Source: Paraburkholderia caffeinilytica
GTDB taxonomy: Bacteria > Pseudomonadota > Gammaproteobacteria > Burkholderiales > Burkholderiaceae
Length of the DNA: 64,000 bases
Reading direction: 5' to 3'
Assembly (NCBI RefSeq): GCF_003368325.1
Contig: NZ_CP031466.1
Span: forward strand, 3,555,048-3,619,047
The position numbers were made by a program, and so were the translations under genes. The notes below the pieces were generated by a model. It saw only the letters and a list, made by a program, of their open reading frames with translations, was not told the DNA's origin and made no database searches. Positions 19,099-33,501 of the stretch are shown here, in pieces. Every line of letters begins with the position of its first letter. Position 1 is the first letter of the stretch.

Positions 19099-19132
19099 GT
19101 TGACTCTCCATGTGAACCTTGCTGTGGAAAGT

Positions 19133-19161
19133 AATTTAGGCTTCGATAGTTTAGATGTCAA
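19133..19161 (-). promoter_or_regulatory. Sigma-70 promoter of the 2-aminobenzoate operon
   Basis: On the minus strand a consensus -35 TTGACA (19161-19156) is followed after exactly 17 nt by TAAATT (19138-19133), about 35 nt before the abmA start codon. The -35 box lies inside an imperfect dyad with TTTA/TAAA ends, a candidate site for the MarR protein encoded in the operon. Confidence 0.75.
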
Positions 19162-19646
19162 GTAAATGGGCGGGCGACGCACATTGAATGAGGGTTTACG
19201 TTGATCCTAGAAATGAAAAGTGTCACTTGCGAATAAAAAGTGTTACGTCACTCCGCAATGCGAAATATCGAAATGGTGAGAGCGTAGATCGCTCTGCGGC
19301 CGACGGACGGCCAAATCATCAGCGCACTGTCAAGGGCGGGTTCTCAGCCTCGGCTGGATGAGCTATCGAAATACCAACCCTAATTCGCAACTAACGGCGA
19401 TCAATCCCTTCTGCCGCCATGCGGCGAATGCCGCTCAACCCAGCCTCCAGCACCGCGGAGATTAGCAAGTAGCTCCGCAGCCTCGCCGGCGGTGTCCCGC
19501 TTGCGGCGTTCGGCGCGTGAAAACACCAACCGAGCGAGCCACCACAGCCAAAAGCGACTTCGACGAACGTGACCGATTTGCCGACGCTAGTTCTGCTTCT
19601 TCCGTCGTTGTTCCTGTCAATCCCCTTGCTTGTGGATCGTCCGCAA
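19162..19646. other. Gene-free spacer with two tandem AAAAGTGTYAC repeats
   Basis: No credible gene is seen. At 19216-19226 and 19236-19246 the sequences AAAAGTGTCAC and AAAAGTGTTAC repeat with a 20-bp period. Repeated blocks of this kind occur at ends of IS21-family elements, so this may be a solo end or remnant; no istA/istB sequence was recognised. The rest of the stretch has low coding potential in all frames. Confidence 0.4.
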
Positions 19647-22600
19647 TCAAGGAAGTCCGATGTCACTAGGTCCGGGTTTGTCCAGAACTGCCGTCGGTCC
19701 GTTCAACGCAAACGCAATATATGCGTGAACCACCGAACCCGACCCGCCCCCCGCAGTTGGGGACCGCATGGGAACTGACAATTGCAATTCGGTCACAAAC
19801 ATATATGAGTAGTTATGCTTACGCTCTACGATCCCTTGCATTCGTTGGGCATCGCCAGCGTCACTCAGGTAGTAGCACCTAATCTCACGAGGACCTGCTG
19901 ATAGCTGAAGTCGTCGAAGGCTGGCGAAAATGGCATTTGCTTCCGTAACATGCTTTAGGTGAAACAACCCGACCGCGTAGTAGAACCGCTTTATCGCATC
20001 GTCACGATAACGTAGATTTTCCAAAGCCAATCTGACGTCGTTGGTAAAGTCATCCCAATGCACCGAGAGGAAACGTTGAATTCTCCACCGAATAACAAGG
20101 TCAACCCGTATCACAATCAGCTCGGCGGATAGATGTGCTCCCTGAGCTTCAACCTGGATCGAACATTGTGCAATGTATTCGTTCACCCCATTGTACGCAT
20201 GACCCTTGTCGCCCTCTGATGCCTCGACGAGTAAACGCCGAGCTACTACCTCGAAACCGACTTGACTCTTTGTTTCGTTAAACATTTTCTGTGCGAGCGC
20301 CTTCATCGAGGTCAAGTCGAGTATCGAGCGAATTATTTTATGCTGCAAATCGGAGAGCATCGCTATGCTCTTCTCATGGCGGAAGGAATTTTTGGCGCGA
20401 GCGCCGATTAACTGGAAAGCACGTTCAATTTCTTGGAGAGCATCGCTGATCGATGCCATCGCAATCTCGTCTGATGCAGCTCGGCCGTTTTGCTGGGCCA
20501 GTTCGAAGAGAAGATTGCCAGAAACGTGCGCGGTATGGGCGTTGAAGTACGTAGAACTTGATGCTTGACGTAGATGATCGCGTACGAGCTGAAAGCCAAT
20601 GGTGCGGTCCTGTTGGCCAGCCTTTATCATTTTTACGATAGTCGACGCCATCGATGTGTGGATATGCTCAAGTGGTGCGTCGCGCTCGGCGCTTGGATAA
20701 ACCTCCGTCCTGAGTGCCTTCTCGAGTTGGCCGTAGGCAGCTAAGGTGTCGCGTCCAACGTCGCCTATCCAGATGCCCTTATGATGCTCGAGTAGCCGGT
20801 CGTCATGTGCGAGCGCGCTACGGGCTACATCAAATAGATCCATTCCTTGGTCATAACTCAGTACTTTCTGTAGTTGGTTTCTATTCCTGACCAAAACCTC
20901 CACCACAAAATTTCGATAGATAGCTGAACCTCCATCGCAAGCACGGAGCAAGTCACGTAAAACTCTGTATTCGCCAACGTGGCCTACCCCACCGTTGACC
21001 AGATCCAGAAGAACGCGCGTTACGATTTCGTTTCTTGTGCGGAAAACAGTATTTCCACTCTCTGAGTCTTGCTCGTCATAGAGCAGGCCCCACAGTGGTT
21101 TTCCGTCGACTATCATGTCTAGCCAATCGCCGTAATTTATACCGAGCGCGCGGACAAGCACTTCTGTCGGTAGCCCAATGTCGAGATTGCTCGTGACGGT
21201 CACATATTCATATGCTTGCCTCGCAGTGTCACTGTCAGCGGCGATTTCCTGCGCTGTGTTCGCGACAGATTCTCGAACATTACCAAGTCGACAGTACTCG
21301 TCCCGTAATGAGTCCGCGAGTTGAGAGCGTGTCTCAGGAATTAGATACCAAAGGCTGCATAGAATATCCAACGCATTCCTGCGGGGCACGAGCGACATCT
21401 CTCTATCCGCTTCCGCTTGGTCCTTCACCGCTCCGATTTTCTGCAGCATGACGCCTAACTCTTTCCATTCTTGATCGTCGAGTTCGTATGGAATCTCGTA
21501 GTCGCTGGTCGTTCCACTCCCCAGAGGAAGCGTACTGTGCTCCCATGAAAAGAAATCCGAATTTCTTAGTGCGAAGACGAACGCGATACGACCAGGGAAT
21601 CGATCAAAACAACCCATCAGTTCACTGGCATCCATGCGCAACGCCCAAGGGTCATCGCAAAAGATCACGACCCCGGAATGTTTCGGTGCAGACTTGAAAT
21701 GCTCCGTGAGGTCGCTCGCAAGGGCACGAAAATTTCGAGTCCATCCTGGGCCTGCTGACCTGCGACACCAGAGCACTATAGAGCCGTCGGCGGCCAGCTC
21801 AACTGCAGTTCTCTTCAACAGAATCGTCTTTCCAATACCAGCTTCCCCGCGCGCTACCACTGGACGTAGACGACCGTTCAGGGATTCGTCGAGTGACGCG
21901 ACAATTGACGGCTTTAGTTTGTCGGTAATCGTACGTCTAAGATCGAGTCCCATAACGAATGGATGCCAATCGATGGCCGCAGGCCTAAAGAGTCCATCGA
22001 TAAGTGCGGGAAGATGAAGTGTATTCCGTGTCGATTCGTCGATCGATGAGGGTACTAACGACACAATTGCTTCGTGCTTTCCGAGTAGCTGATCAAGCTT
22101 GGAAGAGGTTTTCGGTGCCTCAGTATGCACGTAGGTCCTCTGAGGTTTGAGTTCGGCAATCGCTGTACACAGATCTCTGAGGCTTGCGTCGACAACAGAT
22201 GTATCGAATTGACTGCACAGGGCCACGACCGTGGCGTCGCGCAGGGTTGGGTCATCTTTCAGAAACACGAGCTTCGAAACATTCGGCCGCCCCATGCCAA
22301 GGAATGCTCCCAATATGCTTCGTACGAGCGGTGCTACAGATGCGGCGCCTAGGACGAAAAGCGGTCCCTCTCTGAGGTAGTCTGGGAACGTACGTAACAT
22401 TCGTGGCCACATCTGCTGGCGAACGAGCAATTCCGATTCCGACATCGCCAGAGTGGAAGCTGGATCACGGTTATTTAGATTTCCCAGCAGCTTGTAGATT
22501 GGTATGGTGCGCTCCGGTGGCATCAGCGACGGTCCGTCGATGATCGTTGCGCTTAGTGAGCTTGGGATTGTGTCGAAATAATTTCTTAGAGCTGATTCAA

Positions 22601-22934
22601 ACAATACGTCGTCGGTAAGAGATATACATGCCGACCATCCTGCCTTCGCTAGATACGGCAAATCCAATGACGCTTTCAGATCCCGAATTCTCGCCCGAAT
22701 TTCATCTGTCAAACGGGGTAGCCGATCTTGCAGTTGTGTCGCCAAGGCATCGATGGCAGGACGAAAGTGTTGTCCCTGCTCGAGCATGTTGAGTTGTTCC
22801 GGTGCTATAACCCGGACCGAGCCAGAAAGTACGCTGGAGATCGTCCCTGGGGCACACGTGACATCGGGACCGATGATGACTCCGGGCCGGCGCGTTAAAG
22901 AAACCAGTGCCGCTTCAAGCGAAATAGTTTTCAT
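19647..22934 (-). CDS. STAND NTPase with degenerate SIR2-like N-terminal domain; candidate defence protein
   Basis: The protein has 1095 residues. Residues 1 to about 265 follow the SIR2-like pattern (ISLTDDVLFESAL; TIPIYKLLGNLN; GPLFVLGAASVAPLV). The usual catalytic Asn of TTNYD is Thr107 and the usual His of KLHG is Leu150, so NAD hydrolysis is doubtful. Walker A GEAGIGKT is at 363-370 and a Walker B-like VVIFCDDPWAL follows, then a long helical C-terminal region of the sensor type. The start at 22934 is one base after the upstream stop (TGATATG), indicating reinitiation; an in-frame ATG at 22994 is less likely. Such proteins recognise phage products and oligomerise. GC is lower than in the flanks. 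Confidence 0.72.
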   Translation of the reverse strand: MKTISLEAALVSLTRRPGVIIGPDVTCAPGTISSVLSGSVRVIAPEQLNMLEQGQHFRPAIDALATQLQDRLPRLTDEIRARIRDLKASLDLPYLAKAGWSACISLTDDVLFESALRNYFDTIPSSLSATIIDGPSLMPPERTIPIYKLLGNLNNRDPASTLAMSESELLVRQQMWPRMLRTFPDYLREGPLFVLGAASVAPLVRSILGAFLGMGRPNVSKLVFLKDDPTLRDATVVALCSQFDTSVVDASLRDLCTAIAELKPQRTYVHTEAPKTSSKLDQLLGKHEAIVSLVPSSIDESTRNTLHLPALIDGLFRPAAIDWHPFVMGLDLRRTITDKLKPSIVASLDESLNGRLRPVVARGEAGIGKTILLKRTAVELAADGSIVLWCRRSAGPGWTRNFRALASDLTEHFKSAPKHSGVVIFCDDPWALRMDASELMGCFDRFPGRIAFVFALRNSDFFSWEHSTLPLGSGTTSDYEIPYELDDQEWKELGVMLQKIGAVKDQAEADREMSLVPRRNALDILCSLWYLIPETRSQLADSLRDEYCRLGNVRESVANTAQEIAADSDTARQAYEYVTVTSNLDIGLPTEVLVRALGINYGDWLDMIVDGKPLWGLLYDEQDSESGNTVFRTRNEIVTRVLLDLVNGGVGHVGEYRVLRDLLRACDGGSAIYRNFVVEVLVRNRNQLQKVLSYDQGMDLFDVARSALAHDDRLLEHHKGIWIGDVGRDTLAAYGQLEKALRTEVYPSAERDAPLEHIHTSMASTIVKMIKAGQQDRTIGFQLVRDHLRQASSSTYFNAHTAHVSGNLLFELAQQNGRAASDEIAMASISDALQEIERAFQLIGARAKNSFRHEKSIAMLSDLQHKIIRSILDLTSMKALAQKMFNETKSQVGFEVVARRLLVEASEGDKGHAYNGVNEYIAQCSIQVEAQGAHLSAELIVIRVDLVIRWRIQRFLSVHWDDFTNDVRLALENLRYRDDAIKRFYYAVGLFHLKHVTEANAIFASLRRLQLSAGPREIRCYYLSDAGDAQRMQGIVERKHNYSYMFVTELQLSVPMRSPTAGGGSGSVVHAYIAFALNGPTAVLDKPGPSDIGLP

Positions 22935-22935
22935 A

Positions 22936-23733
22936 TCAAAGGGGGCAGAGGTTAATTGTGCGAACGAGGGGAGTGGGAATCGATAGCGACTCAATCATTT
23001 GGTCAAGATCCCCCGTGACTTCGCCACCTGACCAGCGGCGGATTGCGCCAAAGAGATCTGCCATTGCGCACGCTGCACTCAGTTTTCCGAGTTGAAAGTA
23101 ACGGAGAGTGACTGACTCGAGTCCATCTGGCTTAAGAAATATCGCCCAATCGGAAAGCGCAACAATACAAGTTGGTATAACGTCTTCGATGCTCGGACCG
23201 TTGGTCGTCCAGTTTGACTTGGCTAGCTCCCGCAGTGAGTCTTCTAAAGTATCGATTATTGTTGCCGGGGTTCGACTGTCGGGTACCGTGTAGAAGAATA
23301 TTGCGCGCCATACTCGAGCTGGTCGCGCATGGGCGGCGATGATTGCTTGGCTATCGTGAACGTTTTGAAGGGCGGATATTACTTCGCCCTTTGCGTATGA
23401 GGTTTTGACCTGCATATGAGCCACGACGCTGATAGGCGGCGTAATATACAGATCGGATTCTGCAAACAGTGGGGCATGTGTTGATGCATCTGCGATGAGG
23501 ATATCGATTTCCGGGGAGCAGCGTCCGTGATTCGACGAAGACTTTATAAATCCATTTGAGATCGAGAGGTGCCGGGGAGAATGCCGTTGTATGAAGTCCC
23601 GCAGGAGCGCCTCCTTGTGGTTGCCATCCGATAGCCAGTGAGCGTCGCCGATCAGATTACGCACACGATTCGAACGCGAGGCCAATTCGTCCGCCCAACT
23701 CTCTAGGAATGCAGTTGCATCCGGCACTATCAT
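22936..23733 (-). CDS. DUF6602-like protein with PD-(D/E)XK nuclease-type motifs
   Basis: The 265-residue protein matches the DUF6602 pattern: an N-terminal helix, GNHKEALLRDFIQR with Glu41, SISNGFIKSS, then EIDILIAD with Asp77 and VVAHMQVKTSY with Gln108 and Lys110. The Glu, Asp and Q-x-K spacing is that of a PD-(D/E)XK nuclease core. The ATG at 23733 follows AAGGA. It is the first gene of a two-gene operon with the SIR2-like STAND NTPase (1-nt gap). I infer that it is either the nuclease effector or a nucleic-acid-sensing partner; no experimental role is known to me. Confidence 0.68.
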   Translation of the reverse strand: MIVPDATAFLESWADELASRSNRVRNLIGDAHWLSDGNHKEALLRDFIQRHSPRHLSISNGFIKSSSNHGRCSPEIDILIADASTHAPLFAESDLYITPPISVVAHMQVKTSYAKGEVISALQNVHDSQAIIAAHARPARVWRAIFFYTVPDSRTPATIIDTLEDSLRELAKSNWTTNGPSIEDVIPTCIVALSDWAIFLKPDGLESVTLRYFQLGKLSAACAMADLFGAIRRWSGGEVTGDLDQMIESLSIPTPLVRTINLCPL

Positions 23734-24399
23734 TGTTCGGGTCCTTGATTTTATCGAGGGAAAGACCGTTGATGCATGCTGTCGGGATATCGAACTGCGA
23801 ATACCATCATAGCTTGACCGTTGCTATGGTGACAATATTCCCCACTGACACGGCGGTTGGACGAAAGAAACCTGTCGCAGTCTCTACTTGCGCGGTAAAG
23901 GTTGGTCTTGGACGAGTTCGTACGCGTCACGCTCCGGCGACTACGCACGGTTGCAGAATGTCGAAGAGTGGGCGGACGTCGGTAGATCGCCGATCCTTAT
24001 GCGCTGTCGTGAAGCGTTGCTGCGCCTCTACCGAAAACGAGCGGCCGTTCGCCGACCGCATGAAGCAGCTAAATCGGCTAGTGCGGGAGATCGACACTGA
24101 AATCAAGCGAGCCGACCGAATATATCGCACGCCTCCAACATCGCATCCGAACGCACCGATTTTCCGGAATCTCTGAAAATAGTCCGAGCAATGTAGACAC
24201 ACCGCCACACCTGCGCGCCTGCTCTTGAATAGCGCTCGGCGGCGCTCGCAACTCCACCAAATCATTCGCACGCTTCCGACAATCGACGCTCTGAAAGAGC
24301 GCTGACCGACGTTGAGAACATTCCTGATAAACATATTTTATGCATGTATGCAGGGTCTAAATTCAGCGAAAATTTGCCTTCAGCCAAGGAAAAAGGAGA
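23734..24399. other. Intergenic region, no confident gene
   Basis: This stretch lies between the defence-like operon and the displaced tRNA end. Open frames exist on both strands (for example plus 23709-24176 and minus 23927-24334) but overlap each other, lack convincing ribosome sites and match nothing I recognise. It has lower GC than core genes. The promoter of the DUF6602-STAND operon should lie in the first 150 bp. Confidence 0.5.
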
Positions 24400-24427
24400 A
24401 AGGACTTAGCATTGCTGCTAAGTCCTT
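24400..24427 (-). terminator. Rho-independent terminator of the tRNA-Lys locus
   Basis: A perfect 12-bp stem (AAGGACTTAGCA / TGCTAAGTCCTT) with a 4-nt loop. Reading on the minus strand it is followed by TTTCTCCTTTTTCC. It lies nine bases after the CCA end of the tRNA fragment, as expected for the native terminator of that tRNA gene. Confidence 0.9.
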
Positions 24428-24435
24428 GAATTCTT

Positions 24436-24484
24436 TGGTGGGGGTGAGTGACTCGAACACTCGACCCACGGATTAAGAGTCCGG
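24436..24484 (-). other. Displaced 3' end of tRNA-Lys(CUU): integration (att) site
   Basis: On the minus strand the sequence runs from the anticodon arm (CCGGACTCTTAATCCG, anticodon CTT) through a T arm with a perfect stem (GAGTG-TTCGAGT-CACTC) to a terminal CCACCA. The 5' half (acceptor strand, D arm) is absent; integrase-side sequence replaces it, and the acceptor 3' strand is one base short. This is the pattern left when an element recombines into a tRNA gene and pushes the original 3' end aside. The integrase gene starts its 3' end only 40 bp away. The intact tRNA copy is not in the window. Confidence 0.75.
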
Positions 24485-24523
24485 TGGACCGGAACTGCGA
24501 TTCTGAACAACATTTGGGTAGAT

Positions 24524-26146
24524 TCAGGGGCGAGGAAAACTCCCCTCCACAAACGCCCGGGCCTGCGTGAGATCGCTCTTCGCGTACGCCGCAGTCGTCT
24601 GCACCGAGGCGTGTCCCAGCAACTGCTGCGCGACCGGCAGCGGCACCGCGTGGTCGACCACCAGCGTGTGCGCGTAGCCGTGCCGGAGCCAGTGCGTCGA
24701 CGCCGCGCGCAGGACCGTCCGCGTCACGCCGTCACCGGGTGCGACACGGTTTTCCGCCGCCCGGAACACCGCCTTGACCTCATCGTACAGGCCGCTTGCA
24801 CCGAGCGCGTCGCGCTTCTCGCTGTGGATCACCGGCAGCCGTTCGAACGGCACGGGGACAGGCGGCAGGCCGCGCGCGAGCCGGTACGCGCGCAGCGGCG
24901 GCAGGGCGACGGCGGGCAGCGGAATGGCTCGAAGCTTGCCGCCCTTACCGAGGACGTGCAGGGTCCAGTGGCTGTCAGTGTCCGCATCCGCATCGAGCCG
25001 GGGTAACCCGGTGGCGTCCGACCACACCAGTTCCGCGAGCCTCACGCCGCCATAGCGGTACAGCGACCAGATTGCGCAGCGGCGCGCCCACACCAGTGCT
25101 GGAAGGTCCGCCGGTGCCGCCCCGGCCACGACTGCGTCGCACAGCGCGATGACGCCTGCTGGCATGATGCGCGACGGGGTCCACGCGGCGCGGGCGGCGC
25201 TGCCGCCGCACAGGTCCGCGGCCGGATTTGCGATCAGGTAGCCGGTTCTGAGCCAGTAACGGAACAGGCTCGAGACCACCGCGAGGGCGCGCGAGGGCAC
25301 GGCCGTCGACCGTGCCAGTGGGATATGCGGTTGACCGGAACGGATACGGGGGCGGGAGCCTGATGGTGCCGCTTCGCCAGCGTCGGGACGCTGGCCCGAC
25401 GGGCACTGGTGGAGTTCAATGGCGCGCCGGTACGCGAGCAGGTCGTGACGGGTGAGGTCCGACAGCGGCCCGAGCCGTTCGCGTTCGCACCAGGCGATCA
25501 GGCGGCGCAGGTCAGCGAGATAGGCACGCAGTGTGTGGGGCGAGCGGCTCGCGCGATCGCGCAGGAAGAGCAGCACGGCCTGGGCGTCGTCCATGACGCC
25601 GAGGGTGTTCGTGACCATCGACGGATTGACGAAGCGGCCGGCTCGCGCGAGCCACCCGCCGGCGGCGCAGCTCGTGGTGCTGGCAGCATGCGCGGCATGT
25701 TGGGCGAGGGGCGGCGGCCCGAGCGCCGCGAGCCGGACGGCAGCCGTTGCGGTCGCGGGCAAGGACGAGGATGAGGACGCACCGGAGCCTGCCGTGACCG
25801 GCACGTTGCCGTAGGCGACCTCGTGGAAGCGGCGTCGGTGCTGGTGCAGCACGCGTTCGAGGATGGTTTCGGGGGGAGGCGCGTCAGCCGCCGGCACAAC
25901 CCGCAGGCGGCCGCGGTCCCAGTATTCGACGGCGGCCTCGTGCTCGAGCAGCAGCGCGAACACGGCGGGGTGCTCGCGTTTCGCGTCGGCCAGCGACGGG
26001 CAGCCGCGCTTGAGGCGCGACAGCGTCCAGCGGGTGTAGACCGGATGGCCGGTCGCGCCGGCGAGGTAGTCGAGCGCCGCGTCAATCGAATCGGGCAGCG
26101 GTTGCGGGGGCGACGCAGCGGTATCGATCCAGCCGGAAGGGTTCAT
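24524..26146 (-). CDS. Tyrosine-type site-specific integrase
   Basis: The 540-residue recombinase has an SAM-like core-binding region (SRSPHTLRAYLADLRRLIAWC) and a C-terminal catalytic domain with Arg (YRYGGVRLAELVW), Lys (VLGKGGKLRAIPL), His-x-x-Arg (STHWLRHGYA), His (LLGHASVQTTAAY) and the nucleophile Tyr in AAYAKSD. About 180 N-terminal residues precede the recombinase domains and contain a Ser/Ala-rich stretch. Its start overlaps the KfrA-like gene stop as ATGA. Position next to the tRNA-Lys 3' end implies it catalysed, or can reverse, the integration there. Confidence 0.93.
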   Translation of the reverse strand: MNPSGWIDTAASPPQPLPDSIDAALDYLAGATGHPVYTRWTLSRLKRGCPSLADAKREHPAVFALLLEHEAAVEYWDRGRLRVVPAADAPPPETILERVLHQHRRRFHEVAYGNVPVTAGSGASSSSSLPATATAAVRLAALGPPPLAQHAAHAASTTSCAAGGWLARAGRFVNPSMVTNTLGVMDDAQAVLLFLRDRASRSPHTLRAYLADLRRLIAWCERERLGPLSDLTRHDLLAYRRAIELHQCPSGQRPDAGEAAPSGSRPRIRSGQPHIPLARSTAVPSRALAVVSSLFRYWLRTGYLIANPAADLCGGSAARAAWTPSRIMPAGVIALCDAVVAGAAPADLPALVWARRCAIWSLYRYGGVRLAELVWSDATGLPRLDADADTDSHWTLHVLGKGGKLRAIPLPAVALPPLRAYRLARGLPPVPVPFERLPVIHSEKRDALGASGLYDEVKAVFRAAENRVAPGDGVTRTVLRAASTHWLRHGYAHTLVVDHAVPLPVAQQLLGHASVQTTAAYAKSDLTQARAFVEGSFPRP

Positions 26147-27120
26147 TGTCCCTTCCTCCGCGCGGGGGCGCCGGCCGGGGAGGGCGGCGCTGCCGGCGTC
26201 GATGTGGCCGGAGTTTTGCGGTGCCGGACTGGTGCTGGCTTCGCCTGGCGGTGGGTAGTGGCGTGCACGGCTTCCAGCAGGGCGCGGTGCTCAGCAGCGA
26301 CCGTGGCCAGTGCCGCGGCTTCGGCTGCGGCGTGCTGGTGGGCGTTGCGCTCGCTGGCGAGTTCGGTAAGCAGCCGGTCGCGTAATCCTTCGAGTGCGGC
26401 CACCCGCTCCTGTCCCCGGGCGATCTGTTCCGTCATTCGTTCGCGCTCGGCCTGCAGCGCGTGCCGCTGGTGTTCCGTTTCCTGCAGCAGTTGCCGAGAC
26501 AGGCCTTCGTAGCGGGCGTGAACCGCGGCGACCGCCGCCGCATGTTCGGCGTTCGCGGCGTCACGTGCCGCGTTTGCGGAGGCCAGTCCTGCGCGCAGGT
26601 CCGTGGCCGCCCTGTCGGCCTCTGCCATCCTGTCGGCGGCGGCACGGCATTCCGCGCGCACGGTGGCGAGTGCCGTGTCGCGCGTCGAGATCTGGTCACG
26701 CAGGTCAGCCAGTTCCACCCGCAGCAGCTCAACCCGCAGGTCGGCGTCGTGTCGCGCCACCTCGGCCGCCTCACTAGCTTCGGTGGCGGCGGCCTTCATC
26801 TGCACCACCTCGTCGAGCTGGACGGTCACCGCCGCCTGCCACAGCGCGCGCATCTGTTCGGCGATCGGGTCAGGCAGGCCGGGAATCGCGACCTGCGCGA
26901 GGCCGGCGCGCACCACCTCGGCCTCGATCGTGTTCAGGGTGCGTGAGAGCATCGCCGGGTCGCCGGCACCGAGCCGTGCGCGCAGCTTGCGCACCGACAC
27001 CACCCGGCGGAAGCGTTCGCTGGTCGGCGGGGCATGGTCGGGATCCAGCTCCGCCTCGGCGAGCATCGTGAGCACGGTAGTGCGGATCTGGTCGGCGGAG
27101 ACGGCGGCGGGGCGGGCCAT
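26143..27120 (-). CDS. KfrA-like DNA-binding coiled-coil protein
   Basis: The 325-residue protein has an N-terminal KfrA-type helix-turn-helix region (VSADQIRTTVLTMLAEAELDP, PTSERFRRVVSVRKLRARLG) and a long Ala/Glu/Arg-rich coiled coil from about 110 to 290, with a basic Pro-rich tail. KfrA proteins of plasmids bind DNA and autoregulate. The start at 27120 is preceded by GGAG. It is cotranscribed with the integrase, a pairing that suggests control of integrase expression or assistance in recombination. Dyads upstream may be its operators. Confidence 0.85.
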   Translation of the reverse strand: MARPAAVSADQIRTTVLTMLAEAELDPDHAPPTSERFRRVVSVRKLRARLGAGDPAMLSRTLNTIEAEVVRAGLAQVAIPGLPDPIAEQMRALWQAAVTVQLDEVVQMKAAATEASEAAEVARHDADLRVELLRVELADLRDQISTRDTALATVRAECRAAADRMAEADRAATDLRAGLASANAARDAANAEHAAAVAAVHARYEGLSRQLLQETEHQRHALQAERERMTEQIARGQERVAALEGLRDRLLTELASERNAHQHAAAEAAALATVAAEHRALLEAVHATTHRQAKPAPVRHRKTPATSTPAAPPSPAGAPARRKGQ

Positions 27121-27238
27121 GGCGGGACTCCAGTGCGCCCGGGGACGGAAGCAGAACCAGGCGGGCGCAGGCGGGAAATTCCAGCATAGATTACGCACAC
27201 GCCTGACGCCAGAAAACCGTTTTCCGGTCAGAAATGGA

Positions 27239-27279
27239 GCCGGTTGCCGTGATAAACCCCCTTATCACGGGAAACCGGC
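27239..27279. promoter_or_regulatory. Long interrupted palindrome upstream of the KfrA-integrase operon
   Basis: Arms GCCGGTT-g-CCGTGATAA (27239-27255) and TTATCACGG-ga-AACCGGC (27262-27279) flank a 6-nt spacer. It is centred about 139 bp upstream of the KfrA-like start. KfrA proteins bind long inverted repeats in their own promoters, so an operator is the favoured reading; a terminator for an upstream transcript is the alternative. A second near-palindrome GAAAACCGTTTTC lies at about 27211-27223. Confidence 0.55.
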
Positions 27280-27896
27280 GTCTATCCCACCGGACTTGAC
27301 GGCCGCACCAGTGCCCGGCCGTCAGGTCCGGGATGCTCTGGCCACCAGACAGGGTGACACGTCAGGGTCAGTGGTTTGCGTGAAACTGCTTTCCTGGCTG
27401 GCCAGCTAAGGAAGCAGTCTTAGCTAAGCGAACCGGCTCTTCAGCGGGGCAGTGTTGCTGGACCGGACGAAGCGGCGGTGGTGGTTGCCAGCATCGAGCT
27501 GGCAAGGCCTGGGGTTCCGGCCCGGTCGGCGCTCGCGCATCCGGCCAATGGCCCACGCAGCTGGACTGTCGCGCCGGAGATGGCAACCAGGCCGGCATCG
27601 GGCGGCGGGCGCTGAGGTATGCATTGCCCGGCCGCGGCGCGGACTGGCTACGGTTACGTCCCGCCGGTGAGGGCCCGCAGCACCGGGGATCGCTCCTGTC
27701 GCGGCTGCGGCTTGCCCGGCGTGATTCCGGGTCGGCAACGAGGCTGCTACGGTCAATTGACACACCGTGTACACGCGAAACGCAGTCGAAATGCGTCCAT
27801 CGAGCAACGCGTAGTCAGCATCTCCAATTTCCGCAACGCAGCAGAGTTTGTCGGCATCAACGACGAAATGCGGATACCCAGGTTTTTTCTACCTGA
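27280..27896. other. Gene-free stretch, nothing recognised
   Basis: GC-rich sequence upstream of the integrase operon. Open frames occur on both strands but show Arg/Pro/Ser-rich shadow-type translation and no ribosome sites. I see no gene, repeat or RNA here. Confidence 0.5.
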
Positions 27897-28547
27897 TCAG
27901 GCAACGTACGTCCCATGCATGTGCCTGGCGGCGTTAATCACGGCTTCACGTCGGTCGAGCGCGTCCACCGGAGAGACGGGCTCGCCCTCGTGCTCTCCAG
28001 TACCAGAGATCCATCCGTTCTGGAAATGGAACCACGCGGCGATCTTCCACGAGTCGGCTACCGGGCCGAGTGCAGCCAGGATGTCCTTGATGACCGGCAG
28101 TGGCTGGCACATGGCGTCGAACTGGTAGCCGGCAAAGTATTCCTTGCCGCCGATCGACACGCTGAAGATGTGGCCACGGCGCTTCCAGCCGCTGGCCGGC
28201 TGCGCCCTGTTGGCGGGCGGTGCGGCCTGGAGCGCATTGATCTGCCCGGCCGTGAGCCAGTTGCCCCGCGCAAAGACGGCACGCATGGCCTCCTGACGCC
28301 AGATGCGCTCTTCGATGAGGGCTGTGACCGGCGCCGAGAGGCCTGTGATCGCGGTGGCAAGATCATCTGCCCGCTTGATAATCGCTTCCTCGAAGGGCGT
28401 TTGCGTCAGAACGGCCGCCACCAGATCCTCCAAACCCTGTTTCAGGGAAGATACGATGGCTGGGTCGGTGCCGGCCGGCAGGCGCAGGCTGAGCACGAGC
28501 TCCGTCGTCGGGATATCTGTGGTGGATTGGTCATGGGCCCGGATCAT
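27897..28547 (-). CDS. Hypothetical protein with DUF2384-like (Xre/MbcA/ParS) C-terminus
   Basis: This 216-residue protein has a helical N-terminal half (LRLPAGTDPAIVSSLKQGLEDL, LATAITGLSAPVTALIEERIW) and a C-terminal part resembling the toxin-binding domain of ParS/MbcA antitoxins (DSWKIAAWFHFQNGWISG, VSPVDALDRREAVINAARHMHG). No RES-type toxin gene is adjacent. It starts at an ATG overlapping the stop of the upstream gene by four bases, so the two are an operon. The antitoxin-like reading is tentative. Confidence 0.6.
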   Translation of the reverse strand: MIRAHDQSTTDIPTTELVLSLRLPAGTDPAIVSSLKQGLEDLVAAVLTQTPFEEAIIKRADDLATAITGLSAPVTALIEERIWRQEAMRAVFARGNWLTAGQINALQAAPPANRAQPASGWKRRGHIFSVSIGGKEYFAGYQFDAMCQPLPVIKDILAALGPVADSWKIAAWFHFQNGWISGTGEHEGEPVSPVDALDRREAVINAARHMHGTYVA

Positions 28548-28951
28548 GGCCGCCTCACTTCATGACGCACAGTCTCTGGTATTCCAGGGGTACCGTCACT
28601 CTGCAGTTCTTCTGCCAGCAGCTCGCGAACACGCTTCATGATCCAGGTGATCTCGGCCGGGGAAATGTCCCACTGTCCCGGGGACAAGTTCCTGGTTACA
28701 TCGGTTTCGATCCTGGAAAGTGTATCGCGCAGTGACTGCACCGGATTCCCGGCAAGTTTCCGGCGGGCGTAGGATGCAAGCTGTCCGGCGAGGTCTTCGC
28801 ATGCATCGTATCGCGTGGAGAGCTCTTCATCGGTCAATCCGGAGATAAGCTGGTCACCGGCCCGGCTGAGCAGAACTTTCGGCTGGTACCCACCGACGGT
28901 GCCTTGGGCGGGTTCGCGAGGAAAGTCCTCAGGAATGGCCTGAGTATTCAT
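28544..28951 (-). CDS. Hypothetical protein, operon partner of the DUF2384-like gene
   Basis: A 135-residue predicted cytosolic, largely helical protein (GLTDEELSTRYDACEDLAGQLA, SLRDTLSRIETDVTRNLSPGQW, ITWIMKRVRELLAEEL). I do not recognise the family. The ATG at 28951 follows GAGGG; ATGs further upstream lack ribosome sites. The stop overlaps the start of the next gene as ATGA, which indicates coupled synthesis and a shared role. Confidence 0.6.
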   Translation of the reverse strand: MNTQAIPEDFPREPAQGTVGGYQPKVLLSRAGDQLISGLTDEELSTRYDACEDLAGQLASYARRKLAGNPVQSLRDTLSRIETDVTRNLSPGQWDISPAEITWIMKRVRELLAEELQSDGTPGIPETVRHEVRRP

Positions 28952-29100
28952 GGTCGCAACCCTCATTACAGGAGTTTGCATGTAGCGATGCAGAGACACT
29001 CGCAATTATTGCGATTGAACGCCTGGATTTCAGGAAGAAAACGACCGACCCTGTCGTTGGCGAGCGGCACGACGTGAAGGACGATGCCGCGCCAGTTGTC

Positions 29101-29709
29101 CTATTCCAAGAAACCGGCCAGTTTTTCCAGAAGTCTCGCCATCACCTGGCTGTCGCTGATGCCCAGCACAGGGTTGGTTATGACGAGGTGATCGCGCGAC
29201 CATATGGGCCATCCTTCGTCGTGGTCGTCGAGCGCCAGCCATGCGTGCGGCCGTCGACGCACTACATCCGAGCAGACCTGTTTGCCTCGTGGCATCTCCC
29301 TGAACCGGTTTGCGTCCATATCGCCATGAAAGGTCGCGCCGACGACACGGTCGCGCAGCCGTACCGGTAACCGGCGTACGACCTTAAGGACGCTGCCGTA
29401 GACAACAACCCAGTTTGTCGAAAGGACGATCCGCACGCCTGGATAGGGCGCCAGGATTTCGTCGAGCAAACCGGCATGTTCGAGCACCGTATGTCCCGGG
29501 GGAGATGCCACGTAGGGGCCGATTCCTGGACGCCGCCAGACGTCTGCCGGATGCAGCACCCCATCAAAATCCAGGTACAGGACCTGGCCGCCCGTTTGCT
29601 CGGGAGGCGGCGTTGCCACGGAACGCGGGTGTACGTGGCGCGAAAATTCTCTCATCTGAGCGCAAAGGGGCCACCAGCAGCCTTGATGTGGCCTGAAAAC
29701 GTTAAGCAT
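29101..29709 (-). CDS. HAD-superfamily hydrolase (HAD_SAK-like)
   Basis: About 202 residues. The HAD nucleophile motif is VLYLDFDGVLHP, motif II is VLSTNWVV, and the C-terminal acidic motif is LALDDHDEGW. This pattern is the HAD domain found alone or in Swiss-army-knife RNA repair proteins. The start at 29709 overlaps the upstream stop by eight bases; an ATG at 29655 (MREFSRHVHP) is an alternative. A phosphatase or 5'/3'-end processing role is possible but not shown. Confidence 0.72.
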   Translation of the reverse strand: MLNVFRPHQGCWWPLCAQMREFSRHVHPRSVATPPPEQTGGQVLYLDFDGVLHPADVWRRPGIGPYVASPPGHTVLEHAGLLDEILAPYPGVRIVLSTNWVVVYGSVLKVVRRLPVRLRDRVVGATFHGDMDANRFREMPRGKQVCSDVVRRRPHAWLALDDHDEGWPIWSRDHLVITNPVLGISDSQVMARLLEKLAGFLE

Positions 29710-30163
29710 CCCGGCTGGTAGCGACAACGGTAGTGTCAAAGCTCCGCTCGCTGACCAGTTCCGGTGGAAATGCGAGATCACGCCGAATTCGCGTGCATGG
29801 TTTCAGCTCACCATGACTGGTCGAATACCACCTCCAGGGTTCGTCGCCTGCGTTTGGCTTGCGCTCCCGCCAGATGCCGGCAACCTGGTAAAGATGGAGG
29901 CCGATACCATCAGTGGCGCGATCCAGTACGTAGACGAGGAAGCTATCTCGCTCGCATTTCGAAACCGCCTCGAGCAATACTTCGGAACCAGCTAATAGCC
30001 ATCCAGCCGGCAGCGAGGCATCAACCCGTCGTTTGTGCGATGCGATCACCAGAAAATTCAGGGGCTCGTCCGTCCACCCGACGCTGTCCCACGCCTGGTA
30101 GGGCGTCGCAAGTTGCTGTTTGAACGCGTCACGCTGGGCCCAGGTCGCATCCGTCATTAACAT
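29702..30163 (-). CDS. Hypothetical protein
   Basis: A 153-residue predicted soluble protein with many Trp/Tyr residues (WDSVGWTDEPLNFLVIASHKRR, VYVLDRATDGIGLHLYQVAGIW). I recognise no family. The start at 30163 follows AAGGAAG. It is the first gene of a pair with the HAD protein, overlapping by eight bases, and is divergent from the XRE regulator. Confidence 0.6.
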   Translation of the reverse strand: MLMTDATWAQRDAFKQQLATPYQAWDSVGWTDEPLNFLVIASHKRRVDASLPAGWLLAGSEVLLEAVSKCERDSFLVYVLDRATDGIGLHLYQVAGIWRERKPNAGDEPWRWYSTSHGELKPCTRIRRDLAFPPELVSERSFDTTVVATSRDA

Positions 30164-30339
30164 CCATCTTCCTTGAGGTAACTAACTGACATCCTGTCGA
30201 CTTCCTGTCGTGCAATTCACCCGTCGTCCGTTCCCGCAGGCAACCAGTGCCCGCAACGAGATATCTTCGCTACGTGGCCTCCGGCAGTCGTCTCCTGCGC
30301 GGGTACGTCCCACATGGGAAATCGCTGATGGTAACAAAT

Positions 30340-30370
30340 GAACACTATAGATTGTAGTTCTTTAGTGTTC
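30340..30370. promoter_or_regulatory. Dyad GAACACTA-N15-TAGTGTTC upstream of the XRE gene
   Basis: A perfect 8-bp inverted repeat in the divergent intergenic region, about 38 bp before the XRE start. XRE-type repressors usually autoregulate through such dyads. The spacing could also place it over the promoter of the divergent 30163 gene. Confidence 0.55.
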
Positions 30371-30383
30371 GAAATGAGTACAT

Positions 30384-30406
30384 CAAGTCCTTTATGGGAG
30401 GACTTG
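30384..30406 (+). promoter_or_regulatory. Dyad CAAGTCC-N9-GGACTTG covering the XRE ribosome binding site
   Basis: A perfect 7-bp inverted repeat ends two bases before the XRE ATG; the downstream arm includes the end of the GGGAGG ribosome site (30396-30401). As RNA it would form a hairpin hiding the site; as DNA it could be a second operator. Confidence 0.5.
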
Positions 30407-30407
30407 C

Positions 30408-30695
30408 ATGCGCTCCGAGGCCGAGTTCGGCATCGCACTGAAGCGACTTCGCGAAATAGCCAATGTCACACAGGAAGATTTTGGGCTGATCTCCAGCCGG
30501 ACGTACATAAGTACGATCGAACGGGGTCTGAAGTCGCCCACACTGGGAAAGATCGAGAAGTTAGCGGGAGTGCTTGGAATCCACCCACTTACATTGTTGA
30601 CCGTTGCCTACATGGACCGATTCACTCCGAAAGATATCGATCGGGTGACGAATGTTCTGCGCACACAGTTACTGGAAATCTTCGGAGAAAAGTGA
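30408..30695 (+). CDS. XRE-family helix-turn-helix regulator
   Basis: The 95-residue protein is almost entirely a Cro/C1-type HTH (FGIALKRLREIANVTQEDFGLI, SSRTYISTIERGLKSPTLGKIEKLAGVLGIHPLTLL). The start follows GGGAGGACTTGC. It probably represses its own promoter and perhaps the divergent 29702-30163 gene through the dyads at 30340 and 30384. It precedes the AbrB-like gene on the same strand with a 24-bp gap. Confidence 0.88.
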   Translation: MRSEAEFGIALKRLREIANVTQEDFGLISSRTYISTIERGLKSPTLGKIEKLAGVLGIHPLTLLTVAYMDRFTPKDIDRVTNVLRTQLLEIFGEK

Positions 30696-30719
30696 CAGTA
30701 ACAGCGGCGTGCGATCGCG

Positions 30720-31436
30720 GTGGTTCCAGGTGACAATCTATACCTCTCCGTACTGGAAGTCGTCGAGTCCGCTCCGGCGGTGCTCGCTACTTTGGCCGCC
30801 CCGATTCGTCGAGGGCCTGGGGGCGGCGCATGCAGGAGTGCCGCGAGCCGGGCCTATCCTGTGTTCACTTCGCCCGGCCATTTTGGGTACCCATGCGAAC
30901 TCTGGTTTTACAGCACTCGAAACCTGGCGGGCCGACTCCCTTCGACTGTCGTGCAGCTCGACTTTCGATACGGTGCTGAGATTGTGCCGCTGCGGCATTC
31001 CGTTATATGCGACGATGTTGCAATTGCGACTGCGAGAGTGGAGGCGCAGATGGGACGGTCATTGATGGAAATGCGGAGTCTGGCTGCGGAGTTTCCCGAT
31101 GCAATCAAGCGCATGAAGGCCTGCTTGAGGGCAACAGGGCGTGTCGCGACGGATGAGCAAGTGGTCTGGGCGTGGTCCGAGTATTCGGAAAGCGTATGCG
31201 CCAGTTGGTTACTGCTTCCGGAGTCCGATGACGATCTGGTAGTGTTGCTTTTGAGGCATTGGCCGGCATGTGAGCTTCACGCGACAGGCTGTATCGCGAC
31301 GCTGACTGCCGGTGACTTCGGCGGAAGCCCCCAGCTTTCGCTGCCGGAGGAGGTGATTCGCAAAATGGGATGGACATGTGGAGATGAAGTGGAGTTACAG
31401 CGGCAAGGCGATAGTCTCGTTGTGCGCGGACATTGA
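30720..31436 (+). CDS. Hypothetical protein with AbrB-like C-terminal segment
   Basis: Up to 238 residues from a GTG at 30720; there is no clear ribosome site, and the frame opens only at 30702, so the start is uncertain. The C-terminal ~40 residues (LSLPEEVIRKMGWTCGDEVELQRQGDSLVVR) resemble a SpoVT/AbrB swapped-hairpin DNA-binding domain. A middle region (EFPDAIKRMKACLRATGRVATDEQVVWAW) looks helical and unfamiliar. It may be an antitoxin-like or regulatory partner of the XRE protein. Confidence 0.5.
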   Translation: MVPGDNLYLSVLEVVESAPAVLATLAAPIRRGPGGGACRSAASRAYPVFTSPGHFGYPCELWFYSTRNLAGRLPSTVVQLDFRYGAEIVPLRHSVICDDVAIATARVEAQMGRSLMEMRSLAAEFPDAIKRMKACLRATGRVATDEQVVWAWSEYSESVCASWLLLPESDDDLVVLLLRHWPACELHATGCIATLTAGDFGGSPQLSLPEEVIRKMGWTCGDEVELQRQGDSLVVRGH

Positions 31437-32153
31437 AACCCTTGTCAGAGTTTGCCTACCACAGCCGCTGGGATCACCACTGAACTCACTCTACGTGACT
31501 GGACACGCACTGCCACGCCGGCACGACTGCGTTGTCGAGCCGACGGCCGCTCCCGCCGGCACTGCGTCGCACGACCGACGACGACGGCCACTCTCACTTT
31601 AAGCACGCGGCTTGGCGTTCATACATAGCTTGCGAATAGGGAAGGAGATCGTCGTCGTAACGGGCACTGTATTTTCCGTAGCCGATGAACTCGGAGTAAA
31701 TGTTCATCGCCTGAATATGTGACGTTGCCCAGAACGTTCATACCCATTCACTGCCTGGCTCGTTGAGGCTCCGAGCGGCGTCTCCGTCCGGCCCATGCGG
31801 GATGCATGCGGGAAGATAGTTGCCGCGCCCGCCGGGCAATACCAAACTTCATGAAGGTAACTTAGCGCCTTCGTCATGCAATACCGCCCTCATGGCTTTT
31901 TCTTTGGGGGCGCGAATTGTCGACGATTGTCCGGGAGACGTCGAGTGGCCGAAATTGGTCGAACCCGGTCTGATGCTGAACCGACGATGGGAGGCCATCG
32001 TCGACCCGGCTGCATCCGGCAGAAGTCGACCCACAACTGCCGTTCCGACTCCTCAAACAGCCATGACCGCATCCGGAGTACAACGGACGCTCGCGTCGCC
32101 GCGTTGGTCGCCAAGTTATCGGCCGTTGCTGCCGGTCATTCACTGGAATTACG
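31437..32153. other. Remnant-rich intergenic region
   Basis: No intact large gene. It holds a short minus-strand frame at 31594-31707 and precedes an aminotransferase fragment at 32154. Open frames at 31820-32164 on either strand are mutual shadows. It probably marks decayed insertions at the border of the catabolic block. Confidence 0.45.
31594..31707 (-). pseudogene. Short frame, possible gene fragment (37 aa)
   Basis: The minus-strand frame reads MNIYSEFIGYGKYSARYDDD then LLPYSQAMYERQAACLK and stop. Aromatic-rich composition and good codon use suggest a protein-derived fragment rather than chance. Eleven further codons upstream stay open before a stop. The parent family is not recognised. 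Confidence 0.3.
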
Positions 32154-32453
32154 GTGACAGCTGAGCGTCTCCGAAACGCTCGCGATCATCTGGCAATGGG
32201 GCTGACAACCATTCCGGGTGTGCAAGCCGGGCCGCCTGCAAAAGGCGCGATGTACTTACTCTTCCGGATCGACGGCAGCCTCTCCTCTGCGCAACAACTC
32301 GTTTCCGACGGCAAGCTCGGCCTTGCACCTGGCATCGCTTTTCGTCCCGAAGGTGAAGGCTATCTCCGTTGGTGCTTCGCAAGCAGCCATGACTGGCTGG
32401 ATGAAGGAGTTCAAAGACTGAAGAGATATTTGGAAGCGTCGCAGCGGCCCTGA
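32154..32453 (+). pseudogene. C-terminal fragment of a class I/II aminotransferase
   Basis: The 99-residue frame matches the last part of fold type I aminotransferases (AspC/AlaA-like): GVQAGPPAKGAMYLLFRIDG, LGLAPGIAFRPEGEGYLRWC, then a closing helix. The PLP-lysine domain and most of the protein are missing, and upstream sequence is not related. It is a gene remnant, probably non-functional. Confidence 0.75.
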
Positions 32454-32514
32454 TATGAAGGCGCGCAGCACGCCATTAGGCGGCTGCGCTTTCCCAGCCG
32501 ACACCCACGAACGG

Positions 32515-33501
32515 TTACCAGTCGAAGTCGGCTGCCAGGCGCTTTGTGCACACCTTTGCCATGTTTGGCTCGGCACTGTTCGGAAGCGACGCATAAGCGA
32601 CCGCTATCGCGGCCGCCAGCCTCGCGTTGTTGAGACCAATCTGAACACTGCCTTCCGCGCTTGCCCCGTCAGTTAATGCGCTCACACGGGAAATAAGGAA
32701 CGGTGTCACGCCCTTGCCGCTTATACCTTCCCAATCCGCTTCCGCCAGTGCCTGCTCAATGGCGAGATCGATGTCCTCACGAGGCAACGCGAATGGTTCG
32801 GGAATTGGATTGGCAATCACAAGGCCGTTGCTCAGACCGAGTGCCCAGTTGGCTCTCATGACGCGAGCGATCCGCTGAGGATCGTCGAGACGTATGTCGA
32901 CAGGGAACTCACTGTCGCGAGTGAAGAACCCGGGAAGGCTGTCGGTGCAATAGCCGATCACCGGCACGCTATACGTCTCCAGATATTCCAGGGTCAGTCG
33001 GATGTCGAGGATCGATTTGACGCCGGCGCATACCAATGCCACCGGCGTGCGGGCGAGTTCCTGCAGATCAGCCGAAATGTCGAAGTTCTCGTGCGCGCCC
33101 CGATGTACCCCGCCGAGGCCGCCAGCCGCACACGCACGAATCTTCGCCAGGTCTGCAATAACCATCGTCGCCGAGATCGTCGTCGCTCCGTCACCGCCAC
33201 ACGCAACAAGAATCGGAATGTCGCGTCGGCTGACCTTGGCCACATCGTGACCGCCGCGACCGAGGCGACCAATCTCGTCACGTGTCAGCCCAACCTTGAT
33301 ACGGCCGTCCAGAATCGTGCAGGTGGCAGGTATCGCGCCGTGGGCGCGGACTTCGGCTTCGAGTTCAAGCGCGGTTTCAGCGTTCCCCGGCCAGGAGGAA
33401 CCATGCGAGATGATCGATGACTCCAATGCCACAACCGGTCGCCCTGCACTTAATGCCTCAGCAACCTCCGGATGGATATCCAAAAAACCATTCAAACCCA
33501 T
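32515..33501 (-). CDS. psuG: PsuG-like pseudouridine-5'-phosphate glycosidase family protein
   Basis: The 328-residue protein matches the PsuG/IndA family, which cleaves the C-C glycosidic bond of pseudouridine 5'-phosphate to uracil and ribose 5-phosphate using Mn2+ and a Lys imine. Recognisable segments are VVALESSIISHGSSWPGNAETALELE, TCTILDGRIKVGL, KVSRRDIP, GATTISATM, GGVHRGAHENFDISADLQEL and GVKSILDIRLTLEYLET. The start at 33501 follows GGGAGAG. No pseudouridine kinase (psuK) is adjacent. It is the last gene of a catabolic operon, so it may use another C-C bonded substrate; that is inference. Confidence 0.88.
   Translation of the reverse strand: MGLNGFLDIHPEVAEALSAGRPVVALESSIISHGSSWPGNAETALELEAEVRAHGAIPATCTILDGRIKVGLTRDEIGRLGRGGHDVAKVSRRDIPILVACGGDGATTISATMVIADLAKIRACAAGGLGGVHRGAHENFDISADLQELARTPVALVCAGVKSILDIRLTLEYLETYSVPVIGYCTDSLPGFFTRDSEFPVDIRLDDPQRIARVMRANWALGLSNGLVIANPIPEPFALPREDIDLAIEQALAEADWEGISGKGVTPFLISRVSALTDGASAEGSVQIGLNNARLAAAIAVAYASLPNSAEPNMAKVCTKRLAADFDW

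Follow-up and report, generated by a model that had tools for sequence, protein, structure and literature searches.

Two adjacent genes in Paraburkholderia caffeinilytica encode a NucC-family nuclease-like protein (gene A) and a STAND receptor whose N-terminal SIR2 domain lacks the NAD-processing site (gene B). They lie in a 64,000-nucleotide stretch of contig NZ_CP031466.1 (assembly GCF_003368325.1, positions 3,555,048 to 3,619,047), which we call the window; coordinates count from its first base. We propose, with a probability of roughly 0.6, that the pair is a two-gene STAND-triggered defense cassette whose killing step is carried out no longer by the sensor but by a separate NucC-like nuclease. 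Comparison with homologues establishes the folds, the loss of the SIR2 site, a largely conserved nuclease core, the absence of presumed messenger contacts, and the co-inheritance of the two genes.

Gene B is a STAND receptor with a degenerate SIR2 domain

Gene B matched nSTAND_NTPase5 (E = 1.2e-11), and at least 44 homologue clusters were found among the best 8,000 candidates scored. Alignment A2 contains the window protein and 42 of these 44 (43 rows; P0063 and P0089 were excluded). An earlier note on this DNA had described a degenerate SIR2-STAND NTPase. A SIR2 fold was indeed found, and its NADase motif residues have been lost in all 43 rows: none has Asn at the TTNxD position, and none has His or Asn at the HG position. 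Walker B residues D427 and D428 are kept in 43/43. In one of four sister proteins scanned (L086; see below), a cold-shock domain (CSD) was found at residues 985 to 1044 (E = 1e-8), and it aligns with the C-terminal part of gene B. The SAMD9 fold match of gene B extends to model residue 1085.

Pfam SIR2_2 did not match the window protein. Among seven homologues scanned, it scored above the cut-off in two (P0066 and P0069) and below it in three, and it was absent from the copies at L001 (a gammaproteobacterial metagenome-assembled genome) and L002 (Undibacterium pigrum). PADLOC models gave no hit to gene B at E ≤ 1 and only weak hits to the L001 and L002 copies (E of 0.0015 or worse, including Avs4 at 0.049). 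Both proteins have their nearest fold and profile matches among immune proteins: NucC for gene A and Avs5, ThsA, DSR2, KomC, and SAMD9 for gene B.

The nearest relatives that we found are solo SIR2-nSTAND5-TPR-CSD proteins, which have the domain order of gene B and a similar length (902 to 1,055 residues). Nine served for comparison: L086 to L089 (profile E = 1e-27 to 1e-18) and five from Klebsiella, Vibrio, Psychrobacter, Acinetobacter, and Methylobacterium plasmid records (6 of 23 such records were fetched and 5 used). All nine have intact TTN[YF]D and HG, unlike gene B, and also a loop of the G[AS]GA type; the motif spacing agrees with that published for PaAvs5 (PMC12931631). A FastTree phylogeny groups the gene-B members together, apart from the nine sisters (support, 0.91). 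No open reading frame for DUF6602, the family of gene A, was found in the nine sister loci, where the upstream flank was about 5 kb in five, 1.7 to 1.8 kb in two, 0.8 kb in L087, and an uninformative 286 bases in L089; the same search recovered it in both gene-B loci tried. Because the SIR2 site is dead across the gene-B family and intact in the sisters, SIR2 is unlikely to be the effector, unlike in Avs5. This alters the earlier Avs-type view of a STAND sensor with an N-terminal effector: the STAND NTPase with its N-terminal SIR2 domain stands, but that domain's effector role probably does not.

The plasmid-borne sisters (L140 to L144) look like a solo defense family. Four of the five are annotated merely as "SIR2 family protein," and the other record carries no annotation. 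The L143 protein has a type I restriction gene next to it, and the L141 protein has VapBC.

Gene A is a relative of NucC

Gene A matched DUF6602 (PF20247; E = 1.3e-15, 57.6 bits versus a curated cut-off of 27), and 47 homologues were found. Alignment A1 contains gene A of the window and 44 of them (45 rows; the short P0027, P0034, and P0042 were excluded). Profiles and fold comparison both place gene A as a NucC relative with the NucC fold. This supports the PD-(D/E)XK-type fold suggested for it earlier and narrows it specifically to the NucC family. The motif positions given then, both E41, D77, and Q108-V-K110 of gene A and the Walker A motif GEAGIGKT of gene B (residues 363 to 370), are exact.

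Position 108, that of the catalytic Glu, is E in 26 of the 45 rows, Q in 8, H in 8, A in 2, and S in 1, with Q in the window. Among 14 gene-A proteins paired with a gene B, it is E in seven, Q in six, and A in one. The rows with H (P0033, P0035 to P0040, and P0043) form a subgroup of homologues. Because the catalytic Glu is Q in gene A, its nuclease activity is putative.

Instead of being a working nuclease, gene A might bind DNA and serve gene B as a sensor or brake, with gene B acting otherwise, for example through a noncanonical SIR2 reaction or by targeting membranes or ribosomes. The replacement of the catalytic Glu by Q, H, A, or S in 19 of 45 rows would suit this explanation. However, E41, D77, and K110 are invariant, and some PD-(D/E)XK enzymes, such as MspJI, use Q at the Glu position. 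SIR2 motifs can also vary, Avs5 having NG for HG (PMC12931631), but gene B has no N, H, or NG variant in any of the 43 rows, whereas PaAvs5 requires Asn110 according to the same paper. We consider this explanation unlikely and favor a nuclease controlled by gene B.

Genes A and B are inherited together

The two genes were seen directly to be adjacent in three of three loci. They are one base apart in the window (stop and start in the junction TGATATG, as first described), overlap by 4 bases in L001, and lie 9 bases apart in L002; none of these three loci showed a further gene tightly linked to them in an operon. For 12 of the 44 gene-B clusters, the longest contig is exactly equal in size to that of a gene-A homologue, and L001, with its verified adjacency, is among the 12. 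As a control for this matching, offset sizes gave no match in seven of eight trials and one in the eighth. The gene-A and gene-B distance matrices of 13 of the 14 pairs (the partial P0008/P0089 was excluded) correlate at 0.93 in a Mantel test, a value that 0 of 5,000 permutations reached (maximum, 0.61); 10 of the 13 were paired solely by equal longest-contig size. P0001/P0048 and P0003/P0051 are possibly pairs too, uncounted because their longest contigs are unequal. The pair is thus co-conserved. Neither a lack of co-conservation nor the absence of a nuclease or SIR2 fold, results that would have refuted the earlier note, was encountered.

Gene B is rare, because only 1 of 398 genomes of the family, the window's own, carries it; DUF6602 occurs in 43 of them. 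We fetched 40 of the 45 DUF6602 neighborhoods outside the window, and gene B was absent from all 40. The DUF6602 proteins at L068, L073, L077, and L079 have a gene-A-like N-terminal signature (A1 score of 134 to 140 bits) and neighbors without an evident common partner. At L075 (5899 to 9892), another DUF6602 gene (292 residues) lies 154 bases before a same-strand gene for a 986-residue protein with SLFN_AlbA_2 (residues 15 to 161) and NACHT (360 to 529), a combination that may be another type of NucC-like/STAND pair. At L053 (3022 to 6615), a DUF6602 gene with NucC-type motifs is 9 bases from a gene for an 874-residue SMC/RecF-like ATPase.

Gene A lacks the presumed messenger contacts of NucC

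We take R53 and Y81 of NucC to be the residues that contact its messenger, cyclic triadenylate (cA3). At the aligned positions, R occurs in 12/12 and Y or F in 12/12 of the best-scoring DUF6602 loci, and these contacts therefore mark a NucC-proper group. The gene-A clade has R in 3/45 and Y or F in 0/45. Only 4 of the remaining 28 DUF6602 loci have R, and 4 have Y or F, so for many DUF6602 proteins cA3 may never have been the messenger. The host genome gave no match to PF18144 (SMODS) or to TIGR02577 and TIGR02578 (Cmr2/Csm1), other synthase families not having been searched. Beside the pair, no synthase was recognized in the three loci viewed directly, nor any link to a CD-NTase or type III CRISPR system. 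Because the presumed contacts are absent and the genome has no SMODS, Cmr2, or Csm1 match, cA3 is unlikely to control gene A.

Gene A could still be a second-messenger effector if it answered to another cyclic nucleotide, or to a synthase outside the families searched or borne by a phage or mobile element, with gene B as a co-located regulator. It retains the NucC fold, NucC-type proteins beside CD-NTases occur within DUF6602, and NucC is known in cyclic oligonucleotide-based antiphage signaling systems (CBASS) and type III CRISPR. However, the gene-A clade lacks the presumed contacts, the genome search found no SMODS, Cmr2, or Csm1 match, and no third gene adjoins the pair in a tight operon in the three loci viewed directly. 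This makes a messenger-driven gene A quite improbable, and direct control by the STAND protein remains our preferred reading.

Genomic setting

As previously remarked, G+C content is lower in genes A (0.525) and B (0.519) than in the window (0.602). The open reading frame list gave a 1,115-residue version of gene B that starts at an upstream TTG within gene A (see Table 1 for coordinates). In eight of eight same-genus relatives fetched, similarity to the window ends at 19,167 to 19,180, and their next 11 to 14 kb contained no matching piece of ≥150 bases at E ≤ 1e-10. This loss of synteny fits a variable genomic site. The tyrosine recombinase gene and a KfrA_N plasmid-type gene overlap by four bases (24524 to 27198, on the strand of genes A and B) and probably serve the element as its mobility module. 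The 64-kb window contains no tRNA or tmRNA, and no convincing attachment (att) repeat was seen in 19100 to 32600 among the matches listed, which cover 20 of 39 repeat families. Of the integration hotspot proposed earlier, the variable genomic site is supported. Farther along are a HAD_SAK_2 domain protein (29101 to 29781; E = 1.4e-27), of a family annotated as RNA repair, and, at 30408 to 31436, a helix-turn-helix protein (PADLOC control-protein model, 7.7e-10) followed by a 238-residue open reading frame with a C-terminal MazE-like domain.

A co-inherited, nondefensive mobile-element module (toxin-antitoxin-like stabilization or element housekeeping) would agree with the recombinase and KfrA_N genes at a variable site and with the setting of the L001 copy, whose neighbors on either side look AbiE-like and conjugation-like by eye, but it is very unlikely given the immune folds and profiles closest to both proteins and the cost that a conserved 1,095-residue STAND sensor would presumably carry for mere stabilization.

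Table 1. Features of the gene A/gene B locus in window coordinates
Feature	Coordinates	Strand	Remarks
Gene A, NucC-family (DUF6602) nuclease-like protein	22936..23733	(-)	265 residues, ATG start
Gene A E41, invariant acid of N-terminal helix	23611..23613	(-)	45/45
Gene A D77, presumed metal-binding Asp	23503..23505	(-)	45/45
Gene A Q108-V109-K110, (E/Q)xK motif	23404..23412	(-)	K110 45/45
Gene B, pseudo-SIR2 - STAND NTPase - TPR - OB-like protein	19647..22934	(-)	1,095 residues from ATG
Gene B residues 1-264, SIR2 fold lacking the catalytic residues	22143..22934	(-)	
Gene B S105-L106-T107-D108-D109, replacing TTNxD	22608..22622	(-)	
Gene B L150-G151, replacing HG	22482..22487	(-)	
Gene B residues ~281-620, STAND (NB-ARC/nSTAND5) NTPase module	21075..22094	(-)	
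Gene B Walker A GEAGIGKT (363-370)	21825..21848	(-)	G363, A365, G368, K369 43/43; T/S370 43/43
Gene B residues ~636-1007, helical TPR-like array, presumed sensor	19914..21029	(-)	Model secondary structure; TPR Pfam hits in equivalent part of sister L086
Gene B residues ~1015-1090, C-terminal beta domain	19665..19892	(-)	Aligned with cold-shock/OB domain of sister L086
Tyrosine recombinase gene	24524..26146	Same as genes A and B	540 residues; ~0.8 kb upstream of gene A

Discussion

In the cassette that we propose, gene B would be a SIR2-STAND-TPR-OB receptor that retains its SIR2 domain, without the NAD-processing site, as an adaptor, and gene A would be a NucC relative with the nuclease core but without the presumed cyclic-trinucleotide contacts. 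The TPR/OB end of gene B would sense an infection product. Gene B would bind nucleotide and then oligomerize, and its pseudo-SIR2 domains would collect NucC-like subunits into an active assembly, as cA3 does in NucC. The assembled nuclease would cleave DNA, and the infection would be aborted. The sensor probably activates the nuclease directly, because its own enzyme domain is dead. A scaffold could replace the messenger, because NucC is activated when cA3 drives its trimers to assemble into hexamers, as outlined in a review, and Avs5 forms filaments, according to published text and the titles of structures 9jap and 9nc9. More tentatively, the pair might be a messenger-free NucC, or "split SAMD9," in which allosteric activation of a NucC-type nuclease comes not from a cyclic nucleotide but from a dead sirtuin carried by an oligomerizing STAND sensor. 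The mobile defense cassette envisaged in the earlier note agrees with the folds, the co-conserved pair, and the variable site; its anti-phage role is presumptive.

Several points weigh against this proposal. The sister set is small (nine proteins). The partner gene could not be located for 32 of the 44 gene-B clusters, and gene-A-like proteins without gene B exist (L068, L073, L077, and L079). Q takes the place of the catalytic Glu in the window, and 19 of the 45 rows have a residue other than E there; with Gln for Glu, gene A may or may not be catalytic. Whole-chain fold matches of the gene B model are loose (Avs5, root mean square deviation of 27 and TM score of 0.32; SAMD9, 28 to 30 and ≤0.29). 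R53 and Y81 are presumed cA3 ligands, and their absence, judged by alignment, is common to many DUF6602 proteins rather than peculiar to gene A. Finally, the genome search for synthases covered SMODS-type cyclases and two Cas10 models only.

If the proposal is correct, a bacterial immune receptor has traded a built-in NADase for a separate nuclease and kept the dead domain as a scaffold. This would be a direct protein-to-nuclease route in which an NADase effector domain has turned adaptor and a NucC-type nuclease operates without a second messenger. The sister proteins with intact SIR2 are a natural control, and therefore effector swapping is directly testable. The proposal would also be relevant to the origin of the nuclease that sits next to a SIR2-like domain in SAMD9, a human antiviral factor built on this core layout.

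The novelty suggested earlier would apply to the combination and not to the parts, since every single module is already known. We found no description of a NucC relative paired with a dead-SIR2 STAND receptor, and so no support for its being already described, in a nonexhaustive search of open-access literature, with most subscription papers and bioRxiv outside it.

NucC, the effector nuclease of type III CBASS and type III CRISPR, shares its fold and the Asp and Lys with gene A. Gene A differs in its Q for the catalytic Glu, in the missing presumed cA3 contacts, and in its partner, a STAND protein rather than a CD-NTase or Cas10. Avs5 (AVAST type 5) likewise begins with a SIR2 fold that precedes a STAND NTPase, and it requires Asn110 and Asn or His at 153 (PMC12931631). 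Gene B has lost both equivalents, and with them the TTNxD and HG/NG motifs, and it has an OB-like extension and a nuclease in trans. The A2 profile search listed no Avs5 chain at E ≤ 1.

The SAMD9/SAMD9L family is ordered SAM, AlbA_2/tRNase, SIR2-like, P-loop, TPR, and OB, with AlbA_2 absent in some members. Gene B has the core order from SIR2-like to OB, as judged from the model, the loose fold alignment, and the sister CSD hit. No SAM or AlbA_2 domain was found in gene B, and no SAMD9 chain was found at E ≤ 1 in the A2 sequence-profile search. In the SAMD9 family, GG[TS] replaces GK[TS] in Walker A, according to PMC5445408, whereas gene B keeps the lysine (GK[TS] in 43/43). The nuclease of the pair is also in a separate gene and has a different fold. 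In the Avs1 and Hachiman nuclease-protease pairs, as described in PMC12799240, a separate upstream nuclease feeds a defense sensor, as we propose here. That nuclease is an MBL-fold proenzyme activated by a protease, unlike gene A, and the domain search found no protease domain in gene B. Avs1 is the nearest precedent that we found for a STAND protein fed by a separate nuclease.

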